Origin: Euzebya sp.
Lineage (GTDB): Bacteria > Actinomycetota > Nitriliruptoria > Euzebyales > Euzebyaceae
Assembly (NCBI RefSeq): GCF_964222135.1
Contig: NZ_CAXQBR010000094.1
Location: forward strand, 62,001-126,000
Length of the DNA stretch: 64,000 bases
Direction: 5' to 3'
In this document: in pieces, positions 18,428-34,560 of the stretch
Position numbering within the stretch: the first letter of the stretch is position 1
Layout: each line of letters starts with the position of its first letter
Program-made: the position numbers and the translations under genes
The notes under the pieces: generated by a model
What the model was told of the DNA's origin: nothing
Database searches by the model: none
What the model saw: the letters and a program-made list of their open reading frames with translations, nothing else

Positions 18428-20692
18428 ATGACCTGGTCCCGCACGCGTGCCCTCACGGCGGTCGTCGCGCTCGTCGCGCTGGTGGCGGCCCTGCCGGCAT
18501 CCGCCCAGCCCTCCGACACGATCTCGATCGTGAAGGAGGGGGAGGAGGGGCTGAGCAACGCCGAGATCGCCGCCCGGCTGTCGGAGTCGACGTTCCAGTC
18601 CGCCGACCGCGTGGTGATCGGGCGGGACGACGAGTTCGCCGACGCGATGACGTCCGGGCTGCTGCAGGCCGACAGCCCGCTGCTGCTGGTCCCGCGCGGC
18701 GGACCGGTGCCACAACGGGTCCTCGACCAGCTGCAGCTGCTCGATCCCGCGGAGGTGCTGCTCCTGGGCGGGGTGGACGCGATCGCGGAGACGGTCGCCG
18801 AGGAGCTGGACCAGGCCGGCTACGCCGTCGAGCGGGCCTTCGGGGCGTCCCGGTTCGAGACCGCCACCGAGATCGCGGACCTCGCCGCCGCCGACGCCGA
18901 CACGGTCCTCATCGCCCGCGCGTTCGCCGACCCGGGGGCCGCCGACCCGACCCAGGCGTTCGCCGATGCGCTCGCCGCCGGCGGGTGGGCCGCCGAGAAC
19001 CGCTGGCCGATCCTCCTGACCCAGACCGACGTGCTGACCGGCACCACCCGGGACTGGCTGGCCGACCACGACGTCGAGCAGGCGTTCATCCTCGGCGGGA
19101 CCGCCGCGGTCAGCGACGCGGTCGCCACCGAGCTGGCGTCCCTCGTCGGCGACGTCGAGCGCGTCGCCGGTGCCGACCGGTTCGAGACCGCGATCGAGGT
19201 CGCCGCGAAGCGGGGCGCGGACAGCGCCGCGGACGCCGCGCGGGTCACCCTCGTCGAGGCGCAGGACGCCGATGCGTGGGCAGGCGGGTTCGCCTCCGCC
19301 GCCCACTCCGCCGCGTTCGATGCCCCGGTCGTGCTGGCGAACGGCAGCGGCCTGCCCGACGCGACCGAGGACTGGCTCGGCGGCGGCAGCGCGTTCGCCC
19401 AGACGACCGTCGACCCAGGCGACGTGGTGCTGACCTGCGTCAGCCTGCCCGAGGCCTGCGACGAGGCACGCGCGGCCCTCGACCTGCCCCCAGCCGTCAC
19501 GATCAGCTTCGACCCGCCCGGCGGATCGGTCGAGCAGGGGACGGTCGTGACCGTCACCGTCGACGGCGAGCTGGAGCAGCTGACCGTCGACGGCACCTGC
19601 CTGGCCTCCCCCGCCACCACGACGGCCGCGAGCCAGGCGGTCACCCTGACCGAGCCGGGCGCGTGCGAGCTGGTCGCCACCGCCACGCTCGCCGGCGGCG
19701 CCACGCAGTCCGCGACGGCCGGCTACGACGTCGGCGAGGCGCCGGTCCGCCAGATCGTCTACCTCACGAGCGACCTCGCGACCGACGGGACGACGGGCGA
19801 CATCCGGCTGGTCGGCATCGACGGCTCCGCCCCGCAGATCGCTGCGCCGTGCGACCAGTGCCGCGACCTGCGGCTGTCGCCGGCCGCGACCCGGTCGGTC
19901 ACGGTCGAGCCCGCCGGCCTGGTCCTGCGGAGCGCGCCCGGCTTCGACGACCCGGTGCTGCTCGCCGCCGCCGACTCCGTCACCTCCTTCGCGTACCCGC
20001 AGTTCACCCCCACCGGGGACGCGGTCGTGGTGACCCGGTACCTCCAGGGCGTCCCGTCGGTGGTGCACATCGACCTGTCCGGCACCGTCACCGGGGTCGC
20101 CGAGGGCGCCACCCTGGCCGGCTTCGACGCGGTCGGCGCGACCGCCGCGGTGTCCGGCGGGGTCGGGGCGCTGGTGCTGCGCACCTCGTCGTCGCCGGAC
20201 GGGACCGTCACGTCCCTGCTCCTCGTCGACGTGCTGGGGGCGGACGAGGACCAGCCCCTCTTCTCGACCTCCCTGCTGGTCGCCTCGGCGTCGATCAACC
20301 CCGGCGGGACGGCGTTCGCCGCATCCCTCCCCGGTGCGGGCCGGGTCGTCGTCGGGACGCTCCCCGGCAGCCGGACGACGCTCTCGACGCCGGAGACCGA
20401 GCAGGTGGTCGTCTACGACCCGGTCTGGCGGAACGCCTCCACCCTGGTCGGCGTGGACGGGGGTCAGCTCGGCCCGCGTCCGGTCGCGATCTCGATCGGG
20501 TCCGGACAGCTCGACGTGACGGCGGGGCCCGTCGTCGAGGGCCTGCAGGCCCCCGGACGCGTCGGCCAGCTGCCCGACGGCCGGCTGCTCGTCGACCTGA
20601 CCGGGCACCTGGCGACCGCGGCCGGGGACGTCCTGGCGGCGCACGGCGACGTGATCACGAGGAACCCCCAGCTGCTGGCCCCCCCGAGCTGA
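18428..20692 (+). CDS. Exported protein: three CWB2 repeats, Ig-like region, beta-propeller-like C-terminus
   Basis: This 754-residue protein has a signal peptide cleaved after ASA (about 26). Three CWB2 repeats follow (about 40-345), with VIGRDDEFADAMTSG, VLLLGGVDAIAETVAEEL and FILGGTAAVSDAVATEL. The next section (about 355-440) is a beta-sandwich resembling a bacterial Ig-like fold with a pair of cysteines. The C-terminal 300 residues look like a TolB/WD-type beta-propeller (IVYLTSDLATDGTTGDIRL, FTPTGDAVVVTRYLQG). The anchor is therefore N-terminal, unlike the neighbour at 16899. It is probably a surface protein whose propeller binds a ligand or partner. A terminator-like hairpin follows, and the stop codon lies in a 14-bp tandem duplication. 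Confidence 0.85.
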   Translation: MTWSRTRALTAVVALVALVAALPASAQPSDTISIVKEGEEGLSNAEIAARLSESTFQSADRVVIGRDDEFADAMTSGLLQADSPLLLVPRGGPVPQRVLDQLQLLDPAEVLLLGGVDAIAETVAEELDQAGYAVERAFGASRFETATEIADLAAADADTVLIARAFADPGAADPTQAFADALAAGGWAAENRWPILLTQTDVLTGTTRDWLADHDVEQAFILGGTAAVSDAVATELASLVGDVERVAGADRFETAIEVAAKRGADSAADAARVTLVEAQDADAWAGGFASAAHSAAFDAPVVLANGSGLPDATEDWLGGGSAFAQTTVDPGDVVLTCVSLPEACDEARAALDLPPAVTISFDPPGGSVEQGTVVTVTVDGELEQLTVDGTCLASPATTTAASQAVTLTEPGACELVATATLAGGATQSATAGYDVGEAPVRQIVYLTSDLATDGTTGDIRLVGIDGSAPQIAAPCDQCRDLRLSPAATRSVTVEPAGLVLRSAPGFDDPVLLAAADSVTSFAYPQFTPTGDAVVVTRYLQGVPSVVHIDLSGTVTGVAEGATLAGFDAVGATAAVSGGVGALVLRTSSSPDGTVTSLLLVDVLGADEDQPLFSTSLLVASASINPGGTAFAASLPGAGRVVVGTLPGSRTTLSTPETEQVVVYDPVWRNASTLVGVDGGQLGPRPVAISIGSGQLDVTAGPVVEGLQAPGRVGQLPDGRLLVDLTGHLATAAGDVLAAHGDVITRNPQLLAPPS

Positions 20693-20777: not shown

Positions 20778-21641
20778 ATGTCCTCCCCCACCGCTGTGGC
20801 GGCGGAGGTCTGGAACGCCCGCGAGCTGCTGCGGAACCTCGTCTCGAAGGAGCTGAAGGTCCGCTACAAGGGCTCGGTCCTGGGCTTCGCCTGGTCCCTC
20901 GTCACGCCCCTCCTCATGGCCGCCGTGTTCACGGTGGTCTTCGCCACCTTCCTGCGGATCCCGTTCGGCAACGGCAACTTCACGGTCTTCTTCCTCGCCG
21001 GCTACCTGATGTGGCAGTTCTTCCAGAACTCCGTCATGAGCTCCGCCGGGTCGATCATCGCGAACGGCCAGCTGATATCGAAGGTGTACTTCCCCCGCGA
21101 GCTGATCCCCTTCAGCCTGGTGCTCAGCCAGGGGGTGCACCTGTTCCTCGCCCTGGTGGCGACCACCCCGCTGTTCCTGTACTACCGCGGTTTCCACCCC
21201 GAGGTCGTGCCGCTCCTCCTCGTCGCGATCCTGCTGCTGACCATCTTCACGACCGGCGTGTCGATGCTGTTCGGCGCGCTGACGGTCAAGTTCAGGGACC
21301 TGACCGAGCTCCTCCAGGTCATCATGCAGACCTGGTTCTACCTGACCCCCGTCATCTACTCGATCGAGACGATCCGCGGCGCCACCGCCAACGGCGACCA
21401 GCTCGTGCGGCTCATCCGGCTGAACCCCATGACCTGGTTCGCCGAGCTGTTCCACACGCTGATGTACGGCATCGCGCTGCCCCTCACCCCGGGCGACCCG
21501 ACGGGCGGCCCGCCCCACCCGCCGCCGGGCAACGCCGACGACGTGACCTGGCTGGTGTGCACGGCCTGCGCCCTCGTCGCCTTCGCCGTCGGCTACGTCG
21601 TGTTCCGCCACCAGGCCGCGACCTTCGCGAAGGAGGTCTAG
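20778..21641 (+). CDS. Polysaccharide ABC exporter permease (Wzm-like, ABC-2 type)
   Basis: This 287-residue permease has six membrane helices. It begins with the family pattern WNARELLRNLVSKELKVRYK and GSVLGFAWSLVTPLL, and includes VMSSAGSIIANGQLISKVYF and the conserved region NPMTWFAELF. Such permeases pair with Wzt-type ATPases to export lipid-linked O-antigen, teichoic acid or galactan-like polymers. ATG 20778 is preferred over an upstream ATG at 20742 because family homology starts after it. A CAGACT box ten bases before it fits a short or absent leader. The ATPase gene follows after two bases. Confidence 0.93.
   Translation: MSSPTAVAAEVWNARELLRNLVSKELKVRYKGSVLGFAWSLVTPLLMAAVFTVVFATFLRIPFGNGNFTVFFLAGYLMWQFFQNSVMSSAGSIIANGQLISKVYFPRELIPFSLVLSQGVHLFLALVATTPLFLYYRGFHPEVVPLLLVAILLLTIFTTGVSMLFGALTVKFRDLTELLQVIMQTWFYLTPVIYSIETIRGATANGDQLVRLIRLNPMTWFAELFHTLMYGIALPLTPGDPTGGPPHPPPGNADDVTWLVCTACALVAFAVGYVVFRHQAATFAKEV
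21631..21637 (+). promoter_or_regulatory. Strong ribosome-binding site fixing the Wzt start
   Basis: AGGAGGT ends six bases before GTG 21644 and overlaps the last codons of the permease gene. It supports this GTG over the many upstream in-frame codons. Confidence 0.8.
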
Positions 21642-21643
21642 CC

Positions 21644-23038
21644 GTGGATGACACCCCGGCCATCCGGATCCGCGGTCTGCACGAGATCTTCCGGATCTAC
21701 GACGAGGTGCCGCCCGGCATCAAGGAGCGGCTCACGAGCTTCCGCCGCGCGCACTACCGCGAGTTCCACGCCCTCGACGGCATCGACCTCGACATCATGC
21801 CGGGCGAGCGGGTCGGCCTGGTCGGCCACAACGGGTCGGGCAAGTCGACGCTGCTCAAGTGCATGGCGAAGATCCTCCCGGCCGACCGGGGGACGGTCGA
21901 GGTCAACGGGCGGGTCGCCACCCTCCTCGAGCTGGGCGCCGGCTTCAGCCCCGAGCTGACCGGGCGCGAGAACATGTACCTGAACGGCTCGATCCTCGGC
22001 CTGACCCGTGCAGAGGTCGACGCGAGCTTCGACCGGATCGTCGACTTCGCCGGCGTCCGCGACTTCATCGACAACCCGGTGAAGAACTACTCGAGCGGCA
22101 TGTACGTCCGCCTCGGGTTCGCGATCGCCGTCAACGTCGACCCCGACATCCTCCTGGTCGACGAGGTCCTGGCCGTCGGCGACCAGACCTTCCAGGAGCG
22201 CTCGCTGTCGCGCATGCAGGCCTTCGCCGAGGCGGGCAAGACCGTCGTGCTGGTCAGCCACGACCTCGGCAGCGTCGAGAAGCTGTGCGACCGGATCGTG
22301 GTCCTCGAGGGCGGGCACATCGTCTTCGACGGGCCGTCGGCCCAGGCGCTGGAGGAGTACCAGCGACGCCTCGCCACCGGCCACGGCACCGACCTGCACG
22401 TCCCCGACATGCCCGAGCTGTCCGGCCACCGCACCGACGAGGACGACGAGGATCCGGTCACCCACGCGGTGCGCATCGACGAGGTGACCCTCGACCTGCC
22501 GGACGCCGAGGACGACGTGCAGGCCCGGGCGCCGCGCGTCGACACCGGATCCCCCGCGACGCTCCGGATCACCGCCACGCCGACCGCGCAGCTCGTCGGC
22601 GACGGCGGCCTGTACGTCCGCGTCGTCGTGCGCCGCCCCGACCTGGGAGTGCCGCTGTACGACTCCCGCACCTCCTACCGGGTCCAGTACGTGGCTCCGC
22701 CGCCACCGGACGAGCCGTTCACCACGACCGTGGACCTGCGCCTCAACGTCCTCAGCGGCACGTACCTCTTCGACGTCGAGATCGGCAACGCCGAGACCGA
22801 CGCGGTCCACGCGGTCGAAGAGGCCGCCGCCCGCGTCGTCGTGCGCGGCCAGCCGTGGGACGTCGGCATCGTCCCGCTCGACCTCTCCTTCGGCCTGTCG
22901 AACCCCCGCGGCGTGTGGCCGCCCGAGTCCGAGCCGCCGGGCGTCGACGAGGGCGGCCCCGAACGCCACCCCGACCCGTTGTGGCCTGCGGGCGGCACCG
23001 CGCCGACGCAGGTGTCCACCGACGCGAGGAACTCGTGA
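21644..23038 (+). CDS. Polysaccharide ABC exporter ATPase with extended C-terminal domain (Wzt-like)
   Basis: This 464-residue ATPase has Walker A GHNGSGKST (61-69), the family signature YSSGMYVRL near 150 and Walker B ILLVDEVLAVGD near 170. The N-terminal DEVPPGIKERLTSFRR stretch is typical of the Wzt/TagH/RfbB group. Residues from about 285 form an extra beta-rich domain (YDSRTSYRVQYVAPP, DLRLNVLSGTYLFDVEIGN), as in Wzt proteins where it recognises the non-reducing end cap of the glycan. This implies that a capped or otherwise marked polymer is exported. The gene overlaps the next GT2 gene by four bases (GTGA). Confidence 0.92.
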   Translation: MDDTPAIRIRGLHEIFRIYDEVPPGIKERLTSFRRAHYREFHALDGIDLDIMPGERVGLVGHNGSGKSTLLKCMAKILPADRGTVEVNGRVATLLELGAGFSPELTGRENMYLNGSILGLTRAEVDASFDRIVDFAGVRDFIDNPVKNYSSGMYVRLGFAIAVNVDPDILLVDEVLAVGDQTFQERSLSRMQAFAEAGKTVVLVSHDLGSVEKLCDRIVVLEGGHIVFDGPSAQALEEYQRRLATGHGTDLHVPDMPELSGHRTDEDDEDPVTHAVRIDEVTLDLPDAEDDVQARAPRVDTGSPATLRITATPTAQLVGDGGLYVRVVVRRPDLGVPLYDSRTSYRVQYVAPPPPDEPFTTTVDLRLNVLSGTYLFDVEIGNAETDAVHAVEEAAARVVVRGQPWDVGIVPLDLSFGLSNPRGVWPPESEPPGVDEGGPERHPDPLWPAGGTAPTQVSTDARNS

Positions 23039-24048
23039 GGGTCACCGCGTGCGTGGTCAGCTACAACACCGCCGACCACCTGCCCGGGCTGCTCGACTCG
23101 CTCGCCACCCAGACCCACCCGGACCTGCACGTCGTCGTGGTCGACAACAACTCCCACGACGGGTCCGCCGACGTGGTCCGTCGCCGCGGGGACGTCGAGC
23201 TGATCGCCAACCGGCGCAACGTCGGCTACGCCGGTGCGGCGAACCAGGCGCTGGCCCGCGCCGGCGACGGCGGGCTGTTCCTCGTCACCCCCGACGTCCG
23301 CCTCGCCCCCGACCACATCGCCCGGTGCGTGGCGGCGATGGCCGCGCGACCGCGGGCCGCGAGCGTTCAGGGCCGCCTGCGGCGCATGGACGCCGACGGC
23401 CACGAGGTGCGCGTCGACGGCCACCCGGTGATCGACTCGACCGGGCACACGGCCCACACCAACCGCGTCTTCCGGAACCGCGGCGACGCCCAGCCCGACG
23501 ACGGGCGGTTCGACGAGGCGGCCGAGGTGTTCGGCGTGACCGGCGCGGCGGCGCTCCACCGCGTCGAGGCGCTCCACGACGTGGCGGTGGAGGGGGAGGT
23601 GTTCGACACCGACCTGTTCGCGTTCTTCGAGGACGTCGACCTCGACTGGCGACTCAAGGCCCGCGGCTGGGAGGCCTGGTACACGCCGGATGCGATCGGC
23701 GCCCACGAGCGGGGCGGTGAGGGGCCGCGCCGGTCGGCGCTCGTCGAGCGGCTGAGCTACCGCAACTGGTTCCTGACCGTGGCGAAGAACGACGACGTCG
23801 CCACCGCGCTGCCGCACGCCCACCTGCTGGCGGCCACCACGCTCCTGCGGACCGCGGACCTGGCGATCACCGTCCCCACCGCCTTCGTCATGGCCGTGAC
23901 CGACGTGCGGCTGCTCGGCTCGACCCTCCACAAGCGGCGTGTCGCCGACGCCCGTCGCACCGTCAGCCGCGCCGACATCGCCGCCCGCTGGTTCGAGCCG
24001 TTCGACTACGTGGAGTGGATCCGCAAGCGCCTCCGCCGCGGCTGGTGA
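23035..24048 (+). CDS. GT2 glycosyltransferase (rhamnosyltransferase-like)
   Basis: This 337-residue enzyme starts at GTG 23035, overlapping the ATPase stop. It has TACVVSYNTADHLPGLLDSL, VVDNNSHDGS, NVGYAGAANQAL, the metal-binding region VTPDVRL and FFEDVDLDWRLKARGW, typical of bacterial rhamnosyltransferase-like GT2 enzymes (WbbL group). Hydrophobic stretches near 270-295 may touch the membrane. Coupling to the Wzm/Wzt exporter suggests it builds the exported glycan. The specific sugar cannot be read from the sequence. Confidence 0.9.
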   Translation: MRVTACVVSYNTADHLPGLLDSLATQTHPDLHVVVVDNNSHDGSADVVRRRGDVELIANRRNVGYAGAANQALARAGDGGLFLVTPDVRLAPDHIARCVAAMAARPRAASVQGRLRRMDADGHEVRVDGHPVIDSTGHTAHTNRVFRNRGDAQPDDGRFDEAAEVFGVTGAAALHRVEALHDVAVEGEVFDTDLFAFFEDVDLDWRLKARGWEAWYTPDAIGAHERGGEGPRRSALVERLSYRNWFLTVAKNDDVATALPHAHLLAATTLLRTADLAITVPTAFVMAVTDVRLLGSTLHKRRVADARRTVSRADIAARWFEPFDYVEWIRKRLRRGW

Positions 24049-24052
24049 CCCC

Positions 24053-24058
24053 TACGAT
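24053..24058 (+). promoter_or_regulatory. TACGAT -10 box, leaderless type
   Basis: TACGAT lies six bases before ATG 24065 and five bases after the GT2 stop. If used, the coiled-coil gene is transcribed independently as a leaderless mRNA despite its place at the end of the exporter operon. Confidence 0.4.
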
Positions 24059-24064
24059 CCCCCC

Positions 24065-27000
24065 ATGAGCGACATCGAGTCCCGCGTCGACCAGGCCTTC
24101 GCGAACGCCGTCTCGTCCCAGCTCGACGAGCAGCGCGAGATCCGCCGACTCGTCGCCCGCGTCGACGAGAGCCTCGTCGCGCTGTCCGACGGGCTCGTGG
24201 ACCTGTCGGGCGAGGTGCGCGGGACCGCCCAGCAGCTCGTCACCCCCGACGCGCTCGACGACGTCCGCAGCGACCTCGGGCAGGCGATCGGCCGGCTCGA
24301 CCGCCACGTCGAGGAGCTGGGTGAGAACCTCGGCGGCCTCGCCGCCCTCGACGGCATCACCGAGGCCATCGCCGGGACGCGGGGAGAGCTCGTGCAGGCG
24401 CTCGCGGACCTCCAGCGGGACACCGCGCCGGTGGCCGAGGCCGTCGCCGGCACCCGCCAGGACGTCCTCCGCGCCCTGGACCGGCTCGGCGAGGCGATCA
24501 CGGCCACCCAGGACGAGGGCTGGCGGCAGGCGGTCGACCGGCTGGAATCCGTCGTGGTCGACCTCGAGCGCGCGCAGGCCGCCCAGGTCGATGTGTCGGC
24601 GGAGGCGGTGCGACGGCTCCGCGAGGACGCCGGCGCCGCCCTGCAGGGCCTCGCCGACGCCAGCCGGCAGGACCTGGAGGAGCTGCGCGACCGGGCGGGT
24701 CAGCGCCTCGCGGACCGCATCGACGAGATCGCCCGCCAGGTCGTCGACACGTCGGCCGATGCCAGCCGCCAGCTCGGCGAGTCCCTCGCCACCCGGACCG
24801 CGGACCTGACCGACGCCGTCACCGACGCGGTCACGGGCGCCGTCGACCGGCTCGACGAGGCAGCCGGCCGCCGGGACACCGCCGTCGCCGCGATCGAGGA
24901 GGCCGCCGCCCGCGCAGCCGAGCAGGCGGTGCAGGCCGTCGCCCAGCAGGCCGGACGGGCGGTCGCCGAGGGCACCGAGGGGCTGGCCGCCCGCCTCGCC
25001 GAGATCGCGGCCGCAGCAGCAGCGGACGCCGCGGCCCAGGCCGCCGAGGCCATCGAGCGGGCGCAGGCCGCGCACCTCGACACCGTCGCCGCGTCGTCGG
25101 TCGACGCCGCCCGGGCCCAGCTCGACGCCGTCGGGCAGGAGGCCGCCGCCCGGCTGGCCGAGATCGTCGACCGGGTCGGCGAGCGGGACCACGAACTGTC
25201 GTCCCTCGCGGACCGCCTGCAGGCCATCCTGGGCGGCCTGCGGCCGCAGCTGCGCGCGACGGCGGAGGACCTCACGGCGCAGATCAGCGCGCTGCAGGCC
25301 GACGGCGAGCGGCAGTCCCAGGTCCTCGGCGAGATCGCCGAGCAGATCGCCCGGGTCGTCGGCGACAGCGCCGCGGAGACCCGCCGGACCCTGGCCGAGG
25401 CGGTCGAGTCGCTCAGCAGCGTCCAGGCGGACGGGGTCGCCGAGATGACCCGCGCGACCGCCGCGATCAGCGAGGTCGCGCGCTCGCTCGAACCCACGAT
25501 CACCGCCGCCACCGCCGAGCTCCGGACGTCCCTCGAGGACCTCACGCGCGACGACCGCGCCCAGGTCGAGCAGGCGCTCGCCGCGCTGGCCGACGCATCC
25601 AGCGCCGCCCGCGAGGACGTCCTCGACGCCGTGGGACGTGCGACGGCTCGGCTGTCGGATGCCCAGACCCAGGGCATCGACCGCCTGACGGTCGTGACCA
25701 AGGACCTGGCCGGCCTGCCCGAGGAGATCCGTCCCGCGGTCCTCGAGGCCGTGGAGCAGCTGCGGGCCGGGGTCGCCCGGGGGGTGGAGGAGCTGCAGGC
25801 CGCGTCGGCGACGGCCGTCGGCCAGCTGGAGCCATCCATCGAGGCGTCGGTCGTCGGCCTGCGCGATGCGGTGCTGGCCGCGACGGAGGCCGACCGGGCG
25901 CGGACCGCCGACGCGGTGGCGGACCTCACCCGCACCGCCGAGGAGGCCGCGGCGGGCGTCCGCCGCGCCGCCGAGGAGGCGGCGCAGCGGGTCGCCGCGG
26001 CAGAGTCGGAGGGCGTGGCGGCGCTCGAGGCGACCACCGCGCAGCTGGGCGAGCTGGCCACGACCGTCCCCGGGCTGGTCGACCGCGCGGTCGAGACGAT
26101 CACACCCCAGCTGACGTCTCTGGTCGGGGAGTTCCGCGAGTCCCTGATGACCGAGGTCGAGGGGGACCGGACGCGGGCTGCCGAGGCGGCGGCGGAGATG
26201 TCGCGGGCGGCGGGGGAGATGACCGGCATCGCCGAGTCCTTCCGCGACACGGGCCGCAGCTTCCTACCGTCGGCCAAGGCACTGGTCACCCAGCTCTCGA
26301 GCGCCGTCGAGCAGGCCGCCGAGCAGAGCAGCGGCGTCGCCGGCGACGTGGCCGCGGAGGCACGGGACCTGCTGCTGCAGGCCGTCGAGCAGGTCCGCGC
26401 GGACCTCGCCGCGCAGGTGGACACGACCGCCCAGACGCTGGAGCGGGCCACAGCGGCCGCGCGTGACTCCGCATCCCGCGGCGTCGACGAGCTGCGCCAG
26501 GCCGCAGAGGCCCTCGGCGCGGTCAGCACCCAGCTCGAGCCCGGCGTCGCGGCCATCGTCGACCGGCTGCGCGAGGACCTGATCGCCGAAGCCGCCACGG
26601 CGCGCGACCGCACCGAGGAGTCCCTCGCCGAGCTCCGCTCCCAGCTGGTCACCGACGCCGCGGCCGAGCGCGCCCGGGTCGAGTCCGGCCTGGCGGAGCT
26701 GACCGGTGCCGTCCGCGAGGCCGTCGCCGCGCTGGCCGAGGAGGCCGGCACGACCCGCGGCGCCACCGAGTCCCTCGTCGACCGGATCGAGGCGAGCGGG
26801 CGGGAAGCCGCCGCCGGCCTCGGCGAGCACGTCGCGGGCGCCACCGGCCGCATCGACGAGGCCACCGGACGCATCGAGGCGGCCCTCGACCGCATCGACG
26901 CCGCGGGGAGCGGGCTGGTCGCCGCGCTCCGCGAGCAGGTCGCCGAGGCCGGTCGGACCGCCGCGGAGCAGTTGTCCGCGGACGTCGAGGTCACCCGCAC

Positions 27001-29050
27001 CCGGCTGACCGGGGTGCACGAGGGCCTCGGCGAGCAGGTCGGCGAGCTGGTGACCGTGACCGCCGAGCAGATCAGCGCGCTGATCGACCGCACGCGCGCG
27101 GACCTCGAGGCCCAGGTCGGCGAGGCGCGCGAGATGACCGGCCAGGACGTCGAGCGGCGCGAGCGCGCGGTCAGCCGGGTGGAGCAGACCGCCCGAGCCG
27201 TGGTCGCGGAGATCGCCGAGCTCATCGAACGGGCCGAGCGGGCGGTCGACGCCCGGTTGACGGTCTCCGCCGCCGGCGCCGACGACGCCGCCACGCGCAT
27301 GACCGAGACCGCGGAGGGGGTCGCCGAGCGCCTCGAGGCCCAGCTCGCCGGGTTCCGCGCCGAGGTCGAGGCCGCCACCGCGACGGTGCAGGCGACCGTG
27401 GCCGAGCGGACCGCGGGGCTGACCGAGCGCCTCGACGCCGCCACGGCGCTCGAGGCCGAGACCGTCCAGCGCGGCGCCGCGCGCGTGGCAGCCGGGACCT
27501 CCCGGCTGACCGCCGAGCGCGGCCGCACCCGCGACGCGCGGCGCGAGGCGGTCGCCGGAGGCGACGAGGCCGGCCGCGCCCAGCTCGCCCGCCTCGAGAC
27601 CGAGGTCGAGCGGTTGCTCTCCGGCGTGGACCAGCGGATCTCCCAGGTCGCTGACGCCCTCACCGAGGCGCAGTCCGGGACGCGTGCCGCCGAGGTGGCC
27701 CAGGGCGCGCAGCTCGAGCAGCTCGGCGTCGACGTCCGCGCGCACGTCAGCGAGCAGCTCGAGACCGTCCGCGCCGCCCTGGCCGGGCAGGTCGCCGCGC
27801 TCGCCGACCGGGAGGTGACCGGCGGGGAGCAGGTCACGACGGTGGTCGGGGGGCTCCAGGCGTCCCTCGAGTCCCAGGCCGCCCAGCTCGCCGAGCTGGT
27901 CGCCGAGCTGCGGAGCGCCGTCGTCGACGCCGTCGCAGACGACCGGCGCCACCGCGACGCGGGCCTCCAGGAGCTGAACGGCCTGGTCGACGCCGTGCGG
28001 ACCGAGCTCGCCGACGCGGTGCAGGGGGTCGCCGCCGCGGCGGCCCAACCGCCGGACGTCGGCGCCCTGGTGGAGGGCGCGGTGGCCGAGCAGGTCGACC
28101 GGGCCGTCCAGCGGCTGGGTCTCGCGGCCGAGGAGCGGGTGCAGCAGGTCGTCGACCAGATCGTCGCGGCGGCCGAGCGGATCGATGCCGTCAGCGCCGA
28201 CCAGGTCGTCAGGGCCGACCGGACCGAGGCGGCGCTCGCCGATCTGCGGGCCGGCATGCGGGCGGATGCCGACGCGGTCCTCGACGCCCTCGCCCAGCGC
28301 GCGGACTCGGTGCTCGACGGCGTCGGCGACCAGGCCGACTCGGTCCTGACGGGGTTGTCCGACGCCGAGCGCGCGCTCCGCGCCTCCCTCAGCGACGCGT
28401 TCCAGCAGGTGCAGACCGACAGCCTCAGCCGCCTCGACGAGGCGACGTCCCGGCTGATCGCCCTCGGTCCCCGCCTCGAGCGCCAGACCTCTGGACGCGT
28501 CGACGAGGTGGTGCGCCAGGTCGTCGATGCCGTCGCCGACCTCACCGGCGCCGTCTCCGCCGTCGAGCGGCTCGACGGGCGCGTCGAGGACGCCGTGGGC
28601 CGGGCGATCGCCGAGGCACGCCGCAGCGCCACCGAACGGCTCCCCGCGGCCGGTGACGGCAGCGGCGCAGCCGACCCCGCCGCGGTCCGGGAGCTCCGGG
28701 ATCGCTTCGAGTCCCTCGAGATGACGCTCATGCAGCACGTCATCGACCTGCGCGAGGGCACCCACCAGACCGAGTCGGTGCTCGAGGAGCTGTCGCGCCA
28801 GCTCAGCTCGCTCCTCGCCCGGGACGAGGCGCGGCGCCACCGCTGGGCCAGCCCGCAGCGGGGCGCCGCCGCGGGACCCGAGGCGGTGGCGCCGCCGCCC
28901 CCGCCGGCACGGACCGCCGTCGAGGCGCCGGAGGACGCGGTCGTCACCCCGCGCTCGCTGGGCAACGTGTGCCCCGACTGCGGCTTCGTGGCGAAGACGC
29001 CGCCGGGGTTGGCCGCGCACCGCCGCACCTGCCCGGGCCGCCGCTCCTGA
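24065..29050 (+). CDS. Giant coiled-coil protein with C-terminal C2HC zinc-finger motif
   Basis: This 1,661-residue protein has no signal peptide and no membrane helix. Almost the whole chain (about 15-1580) is Ala, Glu, Arg, Asp, Gln, Thr and Val rich, with heptad-like phrases such as RIDEATGRIEAALDRIDAAG. This predicts a very long helical rod or a set of amphipathic helices, like apolipoprotein or chemoreceptor-type repeats. After a short Pro-rich linker it ends with CPDCGFVAKTPPGLAAHRRT and Cys1656: Cys1636, Cys1639, His1652 and Cys1656 would bind zinc. I recognise no named family. Scy/FilP-type polar scaffolds of actinobacteria are a functional analogy only. It lies directly after wzm-wzt-GT2, so a scaffold for polymer synthesis or polar export is a plausible guess. 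Confidence 0.8.
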   Translation: MSDIESRVDQAFANAVSSQLDEQREIRRLVARVDESLVALSDGLVDLSGEVRGTAQQLVTPDALDDVRSDLGQAIGRLDRHVEELGENLGGLAALDGITEAIAGTRGELVQALADLQRDTAPVAEAVAGTRQDVLRALDRLGEAITATQDEGWRQAVDRLESVVVDLERAQAAQVDVSAEAVRRLREDAGAALQGLADASRQDLEELRDRAGQRLADRIDEIARQVVDTSADASRQLGESLATRTADLTDAVTDAVTGAVDRLDEAAGRRDTAVAAIEEAAARAAEQAVQAVAQQAGRAVAEGTEGLAARLAEIAAAAAADAAAQAAEAIERAQAAHLDTVAASSVDAARAQLDAVGQEAAARLAEIVDRVGERDHELSSLADRLQAILGGLRPQLRATAEDLTAQISALQADGERQSQVLGEIAEQIARVVGDSAAETRRTLAEAVESLSSVQADGVAEMTRATAAISEVARSLEPTITAATAELRTSLEDLTRDDRAQVEQALAALADASSAAREDVLDAVGRATARLSDAQTQGIDRLTVVTKDLAGLPEEIRPAVLEAVEQLRAGVARGVEELQAASATAVGQLEPSIEASVVGLRDAVLAATEADRARTADAVADLTRTAEEAAAGVRRAAEEAAQRVAAAESEGVAALEATTAQLGELATTVPGLVDRAVETITPQLTSLVGEFRESLMTEVEGDRTRAAEAAAEMSRAAGEMTGIAESFRDTGRSFLPSAKALVTQLSSAVEQAAEQSSGVAGDVAAEARDLLLQAVEQVRADLAAQVDTTAQTLERATAAARDSASRGVDELRQAAEALGAVSTQLEPGVAAIVDRLREDLIAEAATARDRTEESLAELRSQLVTDAAAERARVESGLAELTGAVREAVAALAEEAGTTRGATESLVDRIEASGREAAAGLGEHVAGATGRIDEATGRIEAALDRIDAAGSGLVAALREQVAEAGRTAAEQLSADVEVTRTRLTGVHEGLGEQVGELVTVTAEQISALIDRTRADLEAQVGEAREMTGQDVERRERAVSRVEQTARAVVAEIAELIERAERAVDARLTVSAAGADDAATRMTETAEGVAERLEAQLAGFRAEVEAATATVQATVAERTAGLTERLDAATALEAETVQRGAARVAAGTSRLTAERGRTRDARREAVAGGDEAGRAQLARLETEVERLLSGVDQRISQVADALTEAQSGTRAAEVAQGAQLEQLGVDVRAHVSEQLETVRAALAGQVAALADREVTGGEQVTTVVGGLQASLESQAAQLAELVAELRSAVVDAVADDRRHRDAGLQELNGLVDAVRTELADAVQGVAAAAAQPPDVGALVEGAVAEQVDRAVQRLGLAAEERVQQVVDQIVAAAERIDAVSADQVVRADRTEAALADLRAGMRADADAVLDALAQRADSVLDGVGDQADSVLTGLSDAERALRASLSDAFQQVQTDSLSRLDEATSRLIALGPRLERQTSGRVDEVVRQVVDAVADLTGAVSAVERLDGRVEDAVGRAIAEARRSATERLPAAGDGSGAADPAAVRELRDRFESLEMTLMQHVIDLREGTHQTESVLEELSRQLSSLLARDEARRHRWASPQRGAAAGPEAVAPPPPPARTAVEAPEDAVVTPRSLGNVCPDCGFVAKTPPGLAAHRRTCPGRRS

Positions 29051-29161: not shown

Positions 29162-29190
29162 TTGACGTTCCACCACCTTTCGCCGAGAAT
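29162..29190 (+). promoter_or_regulatory. Putative whiB promoter
   Basis: TTGACG (29162-29167) and GAGAAT (29185-29190) are separated by 17 bases, which fits the housekeeping sigma factor. Transcription would start near 29197, inside the following dyad. Confidence 0.5.
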
Positions 29191-29196
29191 CGCAGT

Positions 29197-29210
29197 CGTG
29201 TAGTTACACG
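29197..29210. promoter_or_regulatory. Perfect inverted repeat at the expected whiB transcription start
   Basis: CGTGTA and TACACG flank a GT spacer. The dyad covers the predicted +1 region, a classic repressor position. It is unusually AT-rich for this genome. Confidence 0.5.
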
Positions 29211-29264: not shown

Positions 29265-29498
29265 ATGATCGGCATCGAGCAGCTGCCGTGGGCCGACCGT
29301 GCGAAGTGCCTGCAGGCCGAGCCCGACACCTTCTTCCCCGAGAAGGGCGGGTCGACGAGGGAGGCCAAGCGAATCTGCTCCATGTGCGAGGTGCGCGCCG
29401 AGTGCCTGGAGTACGCCCTGGCCAACGAGGAGCGCTTCGGGATCTGGGGGGGCATGAGCGAGCGGGAGCGGCGCAAGCTGAAGCGACTGGCCTCTTGA
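29265..29498 (+). CDS. WhiB-family iron-sulfur regulator (WhiB2/WhmD-like by neighbourhood)
   Basis: This 77-residue protein has the four WhiB cysteines (15, 38, 41, 47) in a C-x22-C-x2-C-x5-C pattern that would hold a 4Fe-4S cluster. The turn GIWGGMSERERR and a basic C-terminal stretch (KLKR) follow. WhiB proteins bind the main sigma factor and tune transcription. The neighbours (large GT2, DUF5719, DUF3499, phosphomannomutase) match the whiB2/whmD locus of mycobacteria and streptomycetes, where the regulator is linked to cell division. I prefer ATG 29265, with a GAGGC-type ribosome site, over an in-frame GTG at 29214. Confidence 0.93.
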   Translation: MIGIEQLPWADRAKCLQAEPDTFFPEKGGSTREAKRICSMCEVRAECLEYALANEERFGIWGGMSERERRKLKRLAS

Positions 29499-29587: not shown

Positions 29588-32500
29588 ATGTCCTCACCAC
29601 CCCCCGCCCCCTACGCCCCCGACGCGGCGGCGCCGACGACCCCGCCGCGCGTGCTGGCCATCCTGGTCAGCCGCGACGGCGAGGAGTCCGTGGCCGCCGC
29701 GCTGCGGACCCTGGCCGCCCAGCGCTACCCGCGCCTCGACGTCGTCGCCGTCGACAACGCCTCGACCGACCGGACCGCCGACGTCCTGACCAGGCGCCTC
29801 GGCGCCGAGCGGGTCATCCGCTCGGAGCGGAACGTCGGCTTCGGGCGCGCGATCGCCCTCGCCCTCCGCTCCGAGGCCGTCGCCGAGGACGTGGACTACG
29901 TCCTGTGCGTCCACGACGACCTGGCCCTGATGCCCGACGCGGTGCAGTGGCTCGTCGACGCGATGGAGACCGACCCGACGCTGTCCGTCGTCGGTCCCAA
30001 GCTGCGCGAGTGGGACGAGGAGCCGCTGCTCCAGCAGGTCGGGATGAGCGCCGACGTCTTCCTGCGGGCCGAGTCGCAGCTCGACCCCGGCGAGCTCGAC
30101 CAGGGCCAGCAGGACGGCCGCGGCGACGTCCTGTACGTGTCGACCGCCGGCATGCTGGTCCGCCGCGAGGTCTTCGCCCGCCTCGGCGGCTTCGACGCCC
30201 GCTTCGACGCGTTCCGCGACGACCTGGACCTCTGCTGGCGCGTGTGGATCGCCGGCCGCCGGGTCGCCGTGGTCCCGGCCGCCGTCGGCTACCACGTCGG
30301 CGCGGCCGCGAGCGGCGCACGCCCGGACCTCGACCTGGCCGAGTCCCGCTACCGCACCGAGCGCCACGCGATCGCCTCGATGCTGAAGAACTACTCGGGA
30401 CGGCGGCTCGCGTGGGTGCTGCCCCTCAGCGCGCTGGTGAACCTCGCCCGCATGGTCGCGCTGGTGATCGCGCGGCGCTTCGGCGAGGCCTTCGCCGTGG
30501 TCCGCGCCTACGCCTGGAACCTCGGGCAGCTGCCGGGGACCCTCCGGCGCCGACGGGTCGTGCAGGCCACGCGGCGCCTGCCCGACAGCCGCCTCTCCGC
30601 GCTGTTCACGCCCGGTCTGCCGCGGCTGCGCCAGTACGCGGACTCCCTCCTCGAATCCCTGGCCGGTGGCAGCACGCGCGCGCTGGTCGACGCCGAGGAC
30701 GTCTCGAGGGTCGGGGTGGACCCGCTGGCGGACCAGCCGATCCAGCGGTTCCTCCGCGACCGCCCCCTCGTGCTGCTCGGCGTGCCCCTGCTGATCGCGT
30801 TCGCGCTGTCGGTGACCGGCTTCCTCGACTCCGGCGCGATCGTCGGCGGCGAGGTCGCCCCCTGGCCGGACTCCCCGATGGCGTTCCTGTCGAGCTACCT
30901 CAGCGGGTGGAGCGGCGATCCGCTCGCCTCCGCCAGCGCGCCCTCGCCGATCCAGGCGGTGCTCGGCCTGCTGTCGGGCCTCCTCGCGGGCAGCGCGTGG
31001 CTGGCCCAGCGGGTGCTGGTCTTCGGGATCGTGCCCCTGGCGTTCACGACCACCCTCCGCGCCGGCCGGCTCGTGACCAACCAGCCCTGGCCGCGCGTCG
31101 TCGGCGCGGCCATCTACGTGCTCTCACCCGCGGTCCTCGGGACGCTGGCCGAGGGCCGGTACGGCCTGGCGATCGTGGCGGGCCTGCTGCCCGCGGTCGT
31201 CTCGCTGACCATCACCACCGTCGACCCCCGCACGGCCCCCGGGGTGGCGTGGCGGTCCACCGCGCTCCTCAGCCTGGCCGTCGTGCTGTCCCTCGGCGCG
31301 GATCCGATCGAGGGGCTGCTCGTCCCGGTGATCATCGTCGTCGCCCTGGTCGTCGCGGTGCTCCGGGGGTGGGTGCGCCCGTTCGTCCGCCTGGCCGTCG
31401 GCGCCGTCGGTGCGGTCCTGATCCTGTCCCCGTGGCTGGTCGACCTCGTGCGCGACGGCGGTCCCGGCGCGGGGACGCTCGCGTCCGGCGCGGGTGCGCC
31501 GGCCGTCGACATCCCGCTGTGGCGGGCGTTGACCGGCCAGCCGCAGATCGTCGACGGCCTCGATGGGGTGATCGGCTGGGGGATGGTCGCCATCCCCGCT
31601 GCGGTCCTCCTCGGCGCGCTCGTGGTCGGCATGCGCGCGCGGCCCCTCATCACCGCGTCGCTGGTCCTGCTGGTCGTCACCTCCGGCGGGCTGGCCTGGG
31701 CGACCGGCTACTACGACGTCCCCTTCGTCCACCCGCCCGCGCTCCTGCTGCCCGGCGCCGTCGGGCTGGCCGTGCTGGGGATGATCACCGCCCGGTGGTC
31801 GACGGAGACCCTCACGGCTGCCGACTTCGGCGTCGCCCAGGTCGGCACGGCCGTCGCCGGGATCGTGCTCGTCGGCGGGGTGGTGGCGGGCCTCGGCCTG
31901 CTGGCGAACGGCCCCTGGACCGAGCTCTCCCAGGACCCCCAGCTCGTCCCCGCGTTCATCGGGGCGGACGCCGAGCAGGTCGGGGAGTACCGGGTGCTGT
32001 TGGTCGACCGGGCCGAGGACGGCGCGGTCAGCTGGGAGGTCGTCGGCGACCAGGGACCGGTGATGACGTCGTTCGGGACGTTGCGGGACGCGGCGCTGAG
32101 CGACGTCATCGCCGACGCGCTCGCCCAGATCGACGAGGGGGTCAGCACCGAGGCGGCCGCGGTGCTCGGCGTGCTGAACGTCCGCTACGTCGTGCTGCTG
32201 ACCCCCGAGCCCGCCCTGCGAACGGCGCTCAGCCGACAGGTCGACCTCGAGCCGCTGCCCTCCACCGCCGCGGTCAGCTACCAGGTCCGGACGTGGCTGC
32301 CGCGCGCCGCGGTGATCGGCGAGCCCGCCGCCGGACGGCTGCTGGCCACCGGCGACCCGGGCCCGACCCGCGACGTCGACGTCCAGGCCCTCGACCCCCG
32401 GTCACCGAGCGCCTACGTCGGCCAGGTCGGTCCCGCCACGGGCGCGCTCGTCGTCAGCGAGGCCGGATCGTCGGCGTGGCGGGCCGTCGTGGGCGGGATG

Positions 32501-32806
32501 GACCTCGAGCGCGTCCTGGACGACCCGGTCAACGCCTACGCGGTCGCGGTCGACGAGCCCGTGACCGCCCAGGCCAGCGTGTCGACGGGCTTCGCCCTGC
32601 GCCGCCGGGTCGTGGTGGCCCTGCAGGTCCTCGTCGTCCTCGCGATCATCTCCCTGGCCGTCCGCCCGCCCGGCGCACGCGTCCGCCCGGAGCGCAGCAC
32701 CTCGCTGCCGACCGACCTGGTCGGCCTGGCCGACACGACCACCTCCTTCCCGCGGATCGACCCGGACGCCGCTCCGCCCGGCACCACCAGGGGAGGTGGG
32801 CCGTGA
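29588..32806 (+). CDS. Large GT2 glycosyltransferase with polytopic membrane C-terminus
   Basis: This 1,072-residue protein has a GT2 domain at about 20-270 (VLAILVSRDGEESVAAALRT, VDNASTDRTADVL, CVHDDLALMPDA, FRDDLDLCWRVWIAG). About a dozen membrane helices and extracytoplasmic loops follow, ending with a helix near 1015-1035. The combination occurs in actinobacteria beside whiB2 and DUF5719, probably in cell envelope glycan synthesis. The extracytoplasmic part suggests it also exports or further processes its product. A TAGGCT box 46 bases upstream is a possible promoter. Its stop overlaps the DUF5719 start by four bases. Confidence 0.88.
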   Translation: MSSPPPAPYAPDAAAPTTPPRVLAILVSRDGEESVAAALRTLAAQRYPRLDVVAVDNASTDRTADVLTRRLGAERVIRSERNVGFGRAIALALRSEAVAEDVDYVLCVHDDLALMPDAVQWLVDAMETDPTLSVVGPKLREWDEEPLLQQVGMSADVFLRAESQLDPGELDQGQQDGRGDVLYVSTAGMLVRREVFARLGGFDARFDAFRDDLDLCWRVWIAGRRVAVVPAAVGYHVGAAASGARPDLDLAESRYRTERHAIASMLKNYSGRRLAWVLPLSALVNLARMVALVIARRFGEAFAVVRAYAWNLGQLPGTLRRRRVVQATRRLPDSRLSALFTPGLPRLRQYADSLLESLAGGSTRALVDAEDVSRVGVDPLADQPIQRFLRDRPLVLLGVPLLIAFALSVTGFLDSGAIVGGEVAPWPDSPMAFLSSYLSGWSGDPLASASAPSPIQAVLGLLSGLLAGSAWLAQRVLVFGIVPLAFTTTLRAGRLVTNQPWPRVVGAAIYVLSPAVLGTLAEGRYGLAIVAGLLPAVVSLTITTVDPRTAPGVAWRSTALLSLAVVLSLGADPIEGLLVPVIIVVALVVAVLRGWVRPFVRLAVGAVGAVLILSPWLVDLVRDGGPGAGTLASGAGAPAVDIPLWRALTGQPQIVDGLDGVIGWGMVAIPAAVLLGALVVGMRARPLITASLVLLVVTSGGLAWATGYYDVPFVHPPALLLPGAVGLAVLGMITARWSTETLTAADFGVAQVGTAVAGIVLVGGVVAGLGLLANGPWTELSQDPQLVPAFIGADAEQVGEYRVLLVDRAEDGAVSWEVVGDQGPVMTSFGTLRDAALSDVIADALAQIDEGVSTEAAAVLGVLNVRYVVLLTPEPALRTALSRQVDLEPLPSTAAVSYQVRTWLPRAAVIGEPAAGRLLATGDPGPTRDVDVQALDPRSPSAYVGQVGPATGALVVSEAGSSAWRAVVGGMDLERVLDDPVNAYAVAVDEPVTAQASVSTGFALRRRVVVALQVLVVLAIISLAVRPPGARVRPERSTSLPTDLVGLADTTTSFPRIDPDAAPPGTTRGGGP

Positions 32807-34560
32807 CCGACGCCGGCACCGACGACATCGGGTCGGGGCGCCGACCGCGCGTGCGGGGTCGCAAGCGCGGCATCGCGCTGCTCCTCGTCGCCGTCCTGGT
32901 CGCCGGGGCGAGCGTCGCCGCGAGCCAGCTGACCGACCCCGCCGCCATGACCGCCGCGCCGACGCCCGAGCCCGTGACGGCGGCCACCAGCGGCACCGCC
33001 TACTGCCCGGCCGTGGCCGGGGAGGGCGACACCGCCCAGCTCGAGATCGCCTCGGCCAGCGCGACGGAGCCCTCCGAGATCACCGTCACCCGCTACGTCG
33101 ACGGCCAGCCGATCAGCGACGCGCCCCGCCAGCTGGCGGCCGGGACCAGCGAGGTCCTCGAGATCCCCGACGCCCAACGGGCCGTCCCGTTCGCCATCGA
33201 GTGGCGCGGCGGTCCCGTCGTGGCCCAGCACGCGATCGCCGACGACACCGAGCGCGCCCTCGCCACCTGCGCCACCCAGCCGTCGGACCGCTGGTACCTG
33301 GCGGGCTTCGACACCAACCGCGGGAACACCTCGACCCTCCACCTGTTCAACCCGTTCGGCTCCGACGCCGTCGTCCAGCTGCGCTTCGGCACCCTGGAGG
33401 GGCCCGTCGACCTCGTCATCGCCGACGAGCTCACCGTCCCGGCCGGCGAGGTCGTCAGCCGCGACCTGGCGGAGTTCCGCCCGGAGACCGCCGACCTCGC
33501 CGTGTCGGTCGTGGCCCGCTCCGGCCGGGTCGTCCCGCAGGGCGAGGTCGTGCGCGGCCCCGCCGGGGAGGGGCTCGAGGCCATCACCGGACGGGCCCTC
33601 GTCCCCGCGTCGCCCACCCCCGGCCCGACGCTGCTGCTGCCCGAGGCGCTGGTCGACGACGTCACCGAGAGCTGGGTGACGGTCTACAACCCCGCGGACC
33701 GCCACGCCGCCGTCGAGGTGCAGGTGTCCACCCCGCTCGGTACCGCCTCGACCCTGGCCAGCGAGCTGACCGTCCCGGCGGGCGGCACCGCCCGGATCGA
33801 CCTGGCCGACCTGTCCGCGCTCCCCCGGATGGGGGTGCGGCTCGAGAGCGTCAACGGCATCGGGCTCGTCGCGAGCCGGACGAGCGCCGTCCGGGACGGC
33901 GAGCGGACGGGTGTGACGATCACCCCGGCGGTCGGCACGGCCGACGAGGAGTGGGTCGTGCCGGGGGCGGTGGGCACCGACGCCGTGCTGACGGTCTTCA
34001 ACCCCGGGACGGCGGTGGCGACCGCGACGGTCGAGGTCGCGGGCGACCCCGTCGACGGTGCCGACGGCATCGAGGTGCCCCCGAACGCGCTGGTCGAGGT
34101 GCCGTTGGGTGACGTCGAGGGCGGCGGGGCCGCGCTGGTCACCGCCGACCTGCCCGTCGTGGCCGGCGTGGTGTCGCTCGGCGAGGGCGCCGCGGCCACG
34201 TACTGGTCGGCCACGGGCGTGCCGCTGTCTGAGCTGATCGGCGGCGGTCAGGCCCTGCCCCCGCGCCGCGACCCGTCGCTGTCCTCCCGGCCGGCCGTCT
34301 CGGCGACCGCGACGCCGACGCCGACCCCGGTGCCGGACCGCGGGGGTGAGGGGCAGCTGGACGCCACCCCGACCCCGACGATCATCGGCCCGCCGAGCGA
34401 GACCCCGACCCCCTCACCGGGTGCGGTGCCGCCCGCCGAGACGACCGAGCCCGCGACGACAGAGCCCGCACCGACCGAGACCGGCACCGGCCAGCCCGGT
34501 CCCGACCCGGGCGGCCCCGACGCGGCGCCGACGACGACCGAGGACAGCCTCTTCGGCTGA
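32803..34560 (+). CDS. DUF5719 family membrane-anchored protein
   Basis: This 585-residue protein starts with GTG 32803, overlapping the preceding stop (GTGA). After a basic N-terminus it has one signal-anchor helix (GIALLLVAVLVAGASVAAS). Repeated beta-sandwich units follow, with phrases like GNTSTLHLFNPFGSDA, WVTVYNPADRHAAVEV and DAVLTVFNPGTAVATATV. The last 110 residues are a Pro/Thr/Glu-rich tail, probably wall-spanning. The family is always near the large GT2 and DUF3499 genes in actinobacteria, but its function is not known to me. Two conserved-looking Cys near 67 and 147 may pair. The gene ends with no gap against the convergent gene at 34561. Confidence 0.8.
   Translation: MTDAGTDDIGSGRRPRVRGRKRGIALLLVAVLVAGASVAASQLTDPAAMTAAPTPEPVTAATSGTAYCPAVAGEGDTAQLEIASASATEPSEITVTRYVDGQPISDAPRQLAAGTSEVLEIPDAQRAVPFAIEWRGGPVVAQHAIADDTERALATCATQPSDRWYLAGFDTNRGNTSTLHLFNPFGSDAVVQLRFGTLEGPVDLVIADELTVPAGEVVSRDLAEFRPETADLAVSVVARSGRVVPQGEVVRGPAGEGLEAITGRALVPASPTPGPTLLLPEALVDDVTESWVTVYNPADRHAAVEVQVSTPLGTASTLASELTVPAGGTARIDLADLSALPRMGVRLESVNGIGLVASRTSAVRDGERTGVTITPAVGTADEEWVVPGAVGTDAVLTVFNPGTAVATATVEVAGDPVDGADGIEVPPNALVEVPLGDVEGGGAALVTADLPVVAGVVSLGEGAAATYWSATGVPLSELIGGGQALPPRRDPSLSSRPAVSATATPTPTPVPDRGGEGQLDATPTPTIIGPPSETPTPSPGAVPPAETTEPATTEPAPTETGTGQPGPDPGGPDAAPTTTEDSLFG

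Follow-up and report, generated by a model that had tools for sequence, protein, structure and literature searches.

The window, by which we mean the whole 64,000-nucleotide stretch of Euzebya sp. DNA analysed here (genome G000, contig 94), carries a gene for a 1,661-residue rod-like protein that lies between three genes of glycan export and a whiB gene, the latter followed by a gene for a large glycosyltransferase that we call bigGT. The features of the locus are as follows:

20778–21641, + strand: wzm permease gene (Pfam/NCBIfam matches and PDB relatives), a neighbour not judged part of the system
21644–23038, + strand: wzt ATPase gene, with a C-terminal extension (Pfam/NCBIfam matches and PDB relatives), a neighbour
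23035–24048, + strand: GT2 glycosyltransferase gene (Pfam/NCBIfam matches and PDB relatives), a neighbour
24053–24058, + strand: TACGAT, a putative −10 box of leaderless type (TANNNT), by consensus match only
24065–29050, + strand: rod protein gene, an open reading frame of 1,661 aa
24065–24229, + strand: conserved, family-defining N-terminal helical block (alignments A1, A4 and A6; single helix in AlphaFold2, mean pLDDT 96.7)
24119–24136, + strand: motif Q-x2-E-Q-R, residues 19–24 (alignment of members)
24200–28699, + strand: acidic coiled-coil rod, period 3.635, hardly any aromatics or Lys
28832–28960, + strand: Pro/Ala-rich linker ahead of the terminal module (from the sequence)
28970–29032, + strand: C-terminal C2HC zinc finger (sequence, alignment and AlphaFold2 model)
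29162–29209, + strand: putative whiB promoter TTGACG-N17-GAGAAT, then the palindrome GTGTAGTTACAC, conserved in related genomes
29265–29498, + strand: whiB, WhiB-family regulator (PF02467, 3.8e-26)
29588–32806, + strand: bigGT, a GT2 glycosyltransferase of large size and constant neighbour of the rod family on its downstream side (domain matches and synteny)

Elsewhere in the window we noted an 848-residue protein joining a GT2 domain to a GT1-type glycosyltransferase domain in a glycosyltransferase-rich region (7822–10368), three proteins with CW_binding_2 repeats near sugar genes, one of them with a CAP domain (16899–18302, 18428–20692 and 43729–46086), and a 762-residue reading frame with an N-terminal CopC domain (2576–4864) that adjoins a Ser/Thr protein kinase gene (996–2564).

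The original prediction of a 1,661-residue rod-like protein without a membrane helix was borne out. The reading frame runs from the ATG at 24065 to the stop at 29050 and is present as a single copy in its genome, and hydropathy averaged over 19 residues peaks at 1.24 in the whole protein. Hydrophobic residues recur with a period of 3.635 that stays in one phase over 1,500 residues (spectral power 96; the maximum among 100 shuffles is 10.5), and since this period is near the natural turn of the α-helix, the hydrophobic stripe, which spans about 160 degrees of the helix, would be nearly straight. The rod is acidic, with a net charge of −7.7 per 100 residues, 0.4% aromatics and 0.1% Lys, and a tandem repeat search returned short arrays only. 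Its matches to Apolipoprotein and Baculo_PEP_C in Pfam and to LegC2/C7, SMC and ZorA in NCBIfam were judged to be composition matches of helical rods; ZorA, moreover, requires a membrane helix, of which the rod protein has none. Also as predicted, the protein ends in an exact C-x2-C-x12-H-x3-C (...NVCPDCGFVAKTPPGLAAHRRTCPGRRS), the sole occurrence of this pattern when the window was scanned in six frames. Orthologues conserve both ends of the protein, and dN/dS for the closest pair of them, G001 and G003, is 0.12, which rules out a frame artefact and establishes the frame as a real gene; the long antisense reading frames are consequently by-products of high G+C.

The GT2 gene was used to reach the same region in related genomes, in which the order wzm-wzt-GT2-gap-whiB-bigGT-DUF3499-PMM is widely kept. 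Orthologues of the rod protein lie in the gap in three genomes of the same genus (G001, 1,885 residues; G002, 1,583; G003, 1,929) and in one of the same taxonomic family (G004, 1,368). In the alignment with these four, good conservation is confined to the first ~50 residues and the finger at the end, and pN between the window protein and G002 is 0.16 at the N-terminus and 0.21 over the last 40 codons versus 0.43 in the rod. The protein is thus built of two slow-evolving ends and, between them, a rod that changes fast and varies in length, in agreement with the rod or tether architecture proposed for it.

The gene had also been placed at the end of a glycan-export operon. Adjacency was confirmed, as the GT2 stop codon (24046–24048) is followed after 16 bases by the ATG of the rod gene, but membership of the operon is doubtful. 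No Shine–Dalgarno sequence is present in the 16-base gap, as against the sequences upstream of wzt and GT2, and TACGAT lies six bases 5′ of the ATG, an arrangement that matches the consensus of a leaderless −10 box. Across the taxonomic family, with five genomes, the gap itself varies (16, ~51, ~146, ~160 and ~218 nt), being about 218, 146, 160 and 51 nt in G001 to G004, each of which has a TANNNT. Together with the separate whiB promoter, these features indicate that the rod gene is probably a transcription unit of its own, and the conserved promoter TTGACG-N17-GAGAAT suggests the same for whiB. Seven bases past the whiB promoter (TTGACG-N17-xAGAAT) stands the palindrome GTGTAGTTACAC, which is kept in G001 and G003, appears as the variant GTGTAACTACAC in G040 and is nearly kept in G050 (L036, L037, L045 and L113, upstream of whiB); it is likely to be the operator of some regulator.

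We traced the wider family with profiles of the N-terminal ~50 residues (A1, A3, A4 and A6) through 66 genomes of the class, 397 of the phylum and, with few genomes, two further classes. Searched against the contigs, the C-terminal 120 residues gave no match and the N-terminal profile gave three records. Q19, E22 and Q23 are invariant in 14 aligned members and R24 is present in all but two; the window protein carries this Q-x2-E-Q helix of the family. Before inclusion in the profile, members matched with E-values of 4e-16 (G024), 1e-8 (G102), 2e-7 (G040), 3e-7 (G088), 8e-6 (G071), 4e-5 (G161), 1.4e-4 (G151), 1.5e-4 (G099), 2.6e-4 (G219) and 6e-4 (G239 and G297). The homology of the distant members comprises about 50 residues plus synteny: those with first matches between 1e-8 and 6e-4 all lie at the same locus where the contig covers it and, as synteny is independent of the profile, this supports the weak sequence matches. 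Weak profile matches in G019, G022, G030, G115, G246 and G323 were discarded, the hit being in another frame, in another protein or in a neighbourhood that is not shared. A member in G085 (L153 5511–7370), in the same gene place and with a very long Ala/Lys tail, was missed by the N-terminal profile, suggesting that the family is larger than the profile counts show.

The usual gene place of the family is fbiC, rod gene, optionally whiB, then bigGT. The gene upstream is usually fbiC, of F420 synthesis, confirmed as the bifunctional CofGH in G071, G040, G219, G050 and G088, and bigGT is the next gene or the next but one downstream in every member whose downstream region is on the contig. A whiB gene intervenes in the class of the window and in G088, and the window's rod gene conforms to this pattern, lying directly upstream of whiB and then bigGT; in G071 and G099 about 10–25 nt separate the rod gene from bigGT. 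The function of this conserved, whiB-linked bigGT seems to be undescribed. In G071, bigGT and DUF5719 form one protein of 1,389 aa (L114 11211–15377), while in the window they are separate reading frames (29588–32806 and 29905–34560). Members range from ~320 aa in other classes to ~1,930 aa, with 1,583–1,929 aa among orthologues within the genus, and a rod period of 3.60–3.70 is found in nearly all of them. Ahead of the linker, members of families f3, f4, f5, f14, f40 and f44 carry another helical block, YL-x2-RD-x2-LE..., which has diverged in f1 and f11. The family's N-terminus is covered by no model of Pfam or NCBIfam, and no description of the family was found in the literature searched; the family is previously undescribed, although proteins that join a long coiled coil to a DNA-binding tail are already known. 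In f4 genomes without a rod protein, a gene of ~200–235 aa stands before whiB where G050 has its rod gene, and its product has an end like sigma factor region 4 (RQREAIELAYFxGHTYRDVARVLGIPEGTAKSRLRDGLxRL):

L047, 7183–7869
L049, 11627–12319
L057, 11378–12076
L064, 13633–14337
L068, 12458–13120
L069, 11827–12444

The C-terminus of the family is not uniform. A C2HC finger is present in the window protein and in G001 to G004, and a C2H2 finger in G024; the spacing C-x2-C-x12-H-x3-H/C holds throughout, with C, C and H kept in six orthologues and the fourth ligand a Cys that is replaced by His in G024. Within the class, a finger profile finds the finger in the rod gene only, one per genome, which excludes a dispersed zinc-finger family; three further matches below 0.01 are short and weak. 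The Pfam model zf-C2H2 does not match the window rod protein. Set against the β-β-α fold of the classical C2H2 type, the AlphaFold2 model of the finger shows a helix with a short bridge (pLDDT 74.6), and its nearest PDB folds by Foldseek, none of them significant (E ≥ 0.7), are almost all C2H2-type fingers, both DNA-binding (BCL11A and PRDM9) and protein-binding (EEA1 and NEMO). In G050 and G040, HHH_5 scores above the Pfam cut-off at the C-terminus (5.1e-11 and 7.9e-10, respectively), and in G040 this end also matches the C-terminus of UvrC at 1.1e-8. G071 and G085 bear long, histone-H1-like Ala/Lys tails, that of G071 with 26 K/R against 2 D/E, and both tails end in a common KTRTR-x-[YF]-I-P. 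The C-terminal ends of G099, G088, G161 and G219 are basic, as are those of most other members, and the tails of the f40 genomes are short and only weakly basic. As judged from these sequence features, the C-terminal module swaps between a zinc finger, a UvrC-like HhH and a histone-H1-like lysine tail.

These observations lead us to propose, with about even confidence, that the rod protein is a DNA-holding coiled-coil rod that acts as a nucleoid bridge, tether or organiser. Cytoplasmic rod chains would pair along the nearly straight stripe, the C-terminal module would most likely hold nucleic acid from its flexible linker, and the conserved N-terminal helix with its Q-x2-E-Q-R motif would most likely join chains or dock on a partner, so that the rod could bridge the nucleoid or anchor the chromosome to a partner in the envelope, which may be bigGT. 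Holding of nucleic acid is favoured because different kinds of module are exchanged at one place in the protein while the N-terminal motif and the gene place are kept; this replacement suggests that what selection maintains is the grip on nucleic acid rather than any given sequence. Several points weigh on the other side: single C2H2-type fingers often bind proteins, those of EEA1 and NEMO sitting on coiled-coil proteins and being among the Foldseek neighbours; the fold match of the finger is not significant; the f40 tails are short and weakly basic; and homology to the distant members amounts to ~50 residues and synteny.

By sequence alone, the window protein, a long helical rod with a C-terminus of DNA-binding type, resembles two known proteins. 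HbhA of Mycobacterium tuberculosis is a helical coiled coil that binds DNA through its C-terminal Lys/Ala/Pro tail (PMC10665949), and this tail is like those of G071 and G085. However, HbhA has 199 aa and an N-terminal hydrophobic stretch, whereas the rod of the window protein spans 1,500 residues and a zinc finger takes the place of a Lys-rich, AKKA-type tail, and the likeness is one of mode of action only, with no sequence homology shown. The Pseudomonas phasin PhaF is likewise a tether of two things, its rod joining DNA to another object through a long amphipathic helix, an oligomerising coiled coil and a DNA-holding C-terminal tail (PMC3574117); the window protein, which is not homologous to it, has no phasin domain and a far longer rod with almost no aromatics. 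The HhH of G050 and G040 recalls the C-terminus of UvrC, but it sits on a rod with no nuclease domain, and the window protein itself has no HhH.

The alternative that the neighbouring genes bring to mind, and that the original prediction had put forward, is a ruler, tether or scaffold for the Wzm/Wzt exporter. The rod gene does stand directly after wzm-wzt-GT2, though only in the window's genus, in G004 of its family and in one more genome (G015), and a coiled coil controls chain length in WbdD of E. coli O9a, which also belongs to an ABC-exporter polysaccharide system (PMC3482155). WbdD differs, however, in having kinase and methyltransferase domains, neither of which was matched by Pfam or NCBIfam in the rod protein, and in relatives the rod protein is not tied to the place of the exporter. 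By a hand count over the 66 genomes of the class, a GT2 orthologue (E < 1e-40) is present in 41, of which nine have the rod protein and 32 have none detectable, absence calls that rest on a short profile and incomplete genomes; in G018, G017, G010 and G016 no rod gene lies between GT2 and whiB. Conversely, the exporter is not directly beside the rod gene in G024, G040, G050, G060, G088, G071, G099, G151, G239, G161, G219 and G297: in G024 (an Egibacteraceae MAG) the gene directly follows a CAP-type gene with no wzm-wzt-GT2 beside it, in G050 and G060 fbiC lies upstream and the exporter genes do not adjoin, and in G040 it follows fbiC on a different contig from wzm-wzt-GT2. Survey of the relatives thus shows that the rod gene is not kept next to wzm-wzt; its places are not random, yet its fixed place is another one. 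A length ruler is not favoured either, given lengths that vary within the genus and fall to ~320 aa elsewhere, and the unconserved GT2 spacing, the missing ribosome site and the −10-like box of the gene itself add to the case against an exporter partner, which we consider highly improbable. As the exporter mostly occurs without a detectable rod protein and the rod occurs elsewhere beside fbiC, whiB and bigGT, we judge wzm-wzt-GT2 to be a neighbour peculiar to this lineage rather than a partner in function. The natural misreading is corrected in this way: neighbours in one genome hinted at glycan export, and comparison of many genomes removes that role.

The main rival to a DNA-holding rod is instead a protein–protein scaffold that gathers or positions bigGT as a cell-envelope glycosyltransferase, in which the terminal module binds protein and not DNA. 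In its favour, bigGT lies downstream in every member that can be checked, with or without whiB, and at short distances in G071 and G099, and the finger model resembles protein-binding as well as DNA-binding fingers; still, the modules that stand in the finger's place in relatives, HhH and histone-like Lys tails, are of kinds that bind nucleic acid, the rod gene of the window has its own −10-like box and is separated from bigGT by a whiB with its own promoter, and bigGT is present in many genomes of the class that have no detectable rod protein, so that we hold this reading to be possible but doubtful. The likeness to the large actinobacterial coiled-coil proteins DivIVA, Scy and FilP, together with the neighbouring whiB, whose family has regulators of cell division and of septation among its members, suggests a rod of their kind, polar or cytoskeletal, that would organise growth at the tip. 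Yet the window protein has no DivIVA domain (PF05103 was matched in one relative's rod only, at 0.0091), the conserved helix at its N-terminus is plain and carries a different motif, and the 51-residue coiled-coil repeat of Scy and FilP does not show in it, lag 51 of the autocorrelation not standing apart from 11, 29, 58, 62 and 69; such a role is unlikely. We think it very unlikely that the rod is an amphipathic helix of apolipoprotein or phasin type that coats lipid or granules and also holds DNA, as PhaF does in joining an amphipathic helix to a DNA-binding tail (PMC3574117). The Apolipoprotein match (3.8e-36), the period near 3.63 and the spread of hydrophobic residues over about 160 degrees would agree with it, but that Pfam model matches Ala/Glu/Arg-rich helices generally and falls below its cut-off in most members, no phasin domain was matched, and so few aromatics and Lys speak against a coat.

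Returning to the rod as a holder of DNA, synteny makes bigGT the natural candidate for the partner of the N-terminus. The specific arrangement in which the N-terminal helix docks on a membrane-located bigGT while the swappable DNA-binding module grips the nucleoid is a tentative and rather unlikely one; if true, coiled-coil rods would link wall growth to chromosome position via bigGT. More broadly, one gene place in several actinobacterial classes holds rods that have in common only a short N-terminal motif and whose DNA-binding-type end has been exchanged among at least three unrelated kinds of module. If confirmed, early-branching actinobacteria would have in it a long nucleoid tether of a new kind, encoded beside WhiB and the wall glycosyltransferase bigGT.
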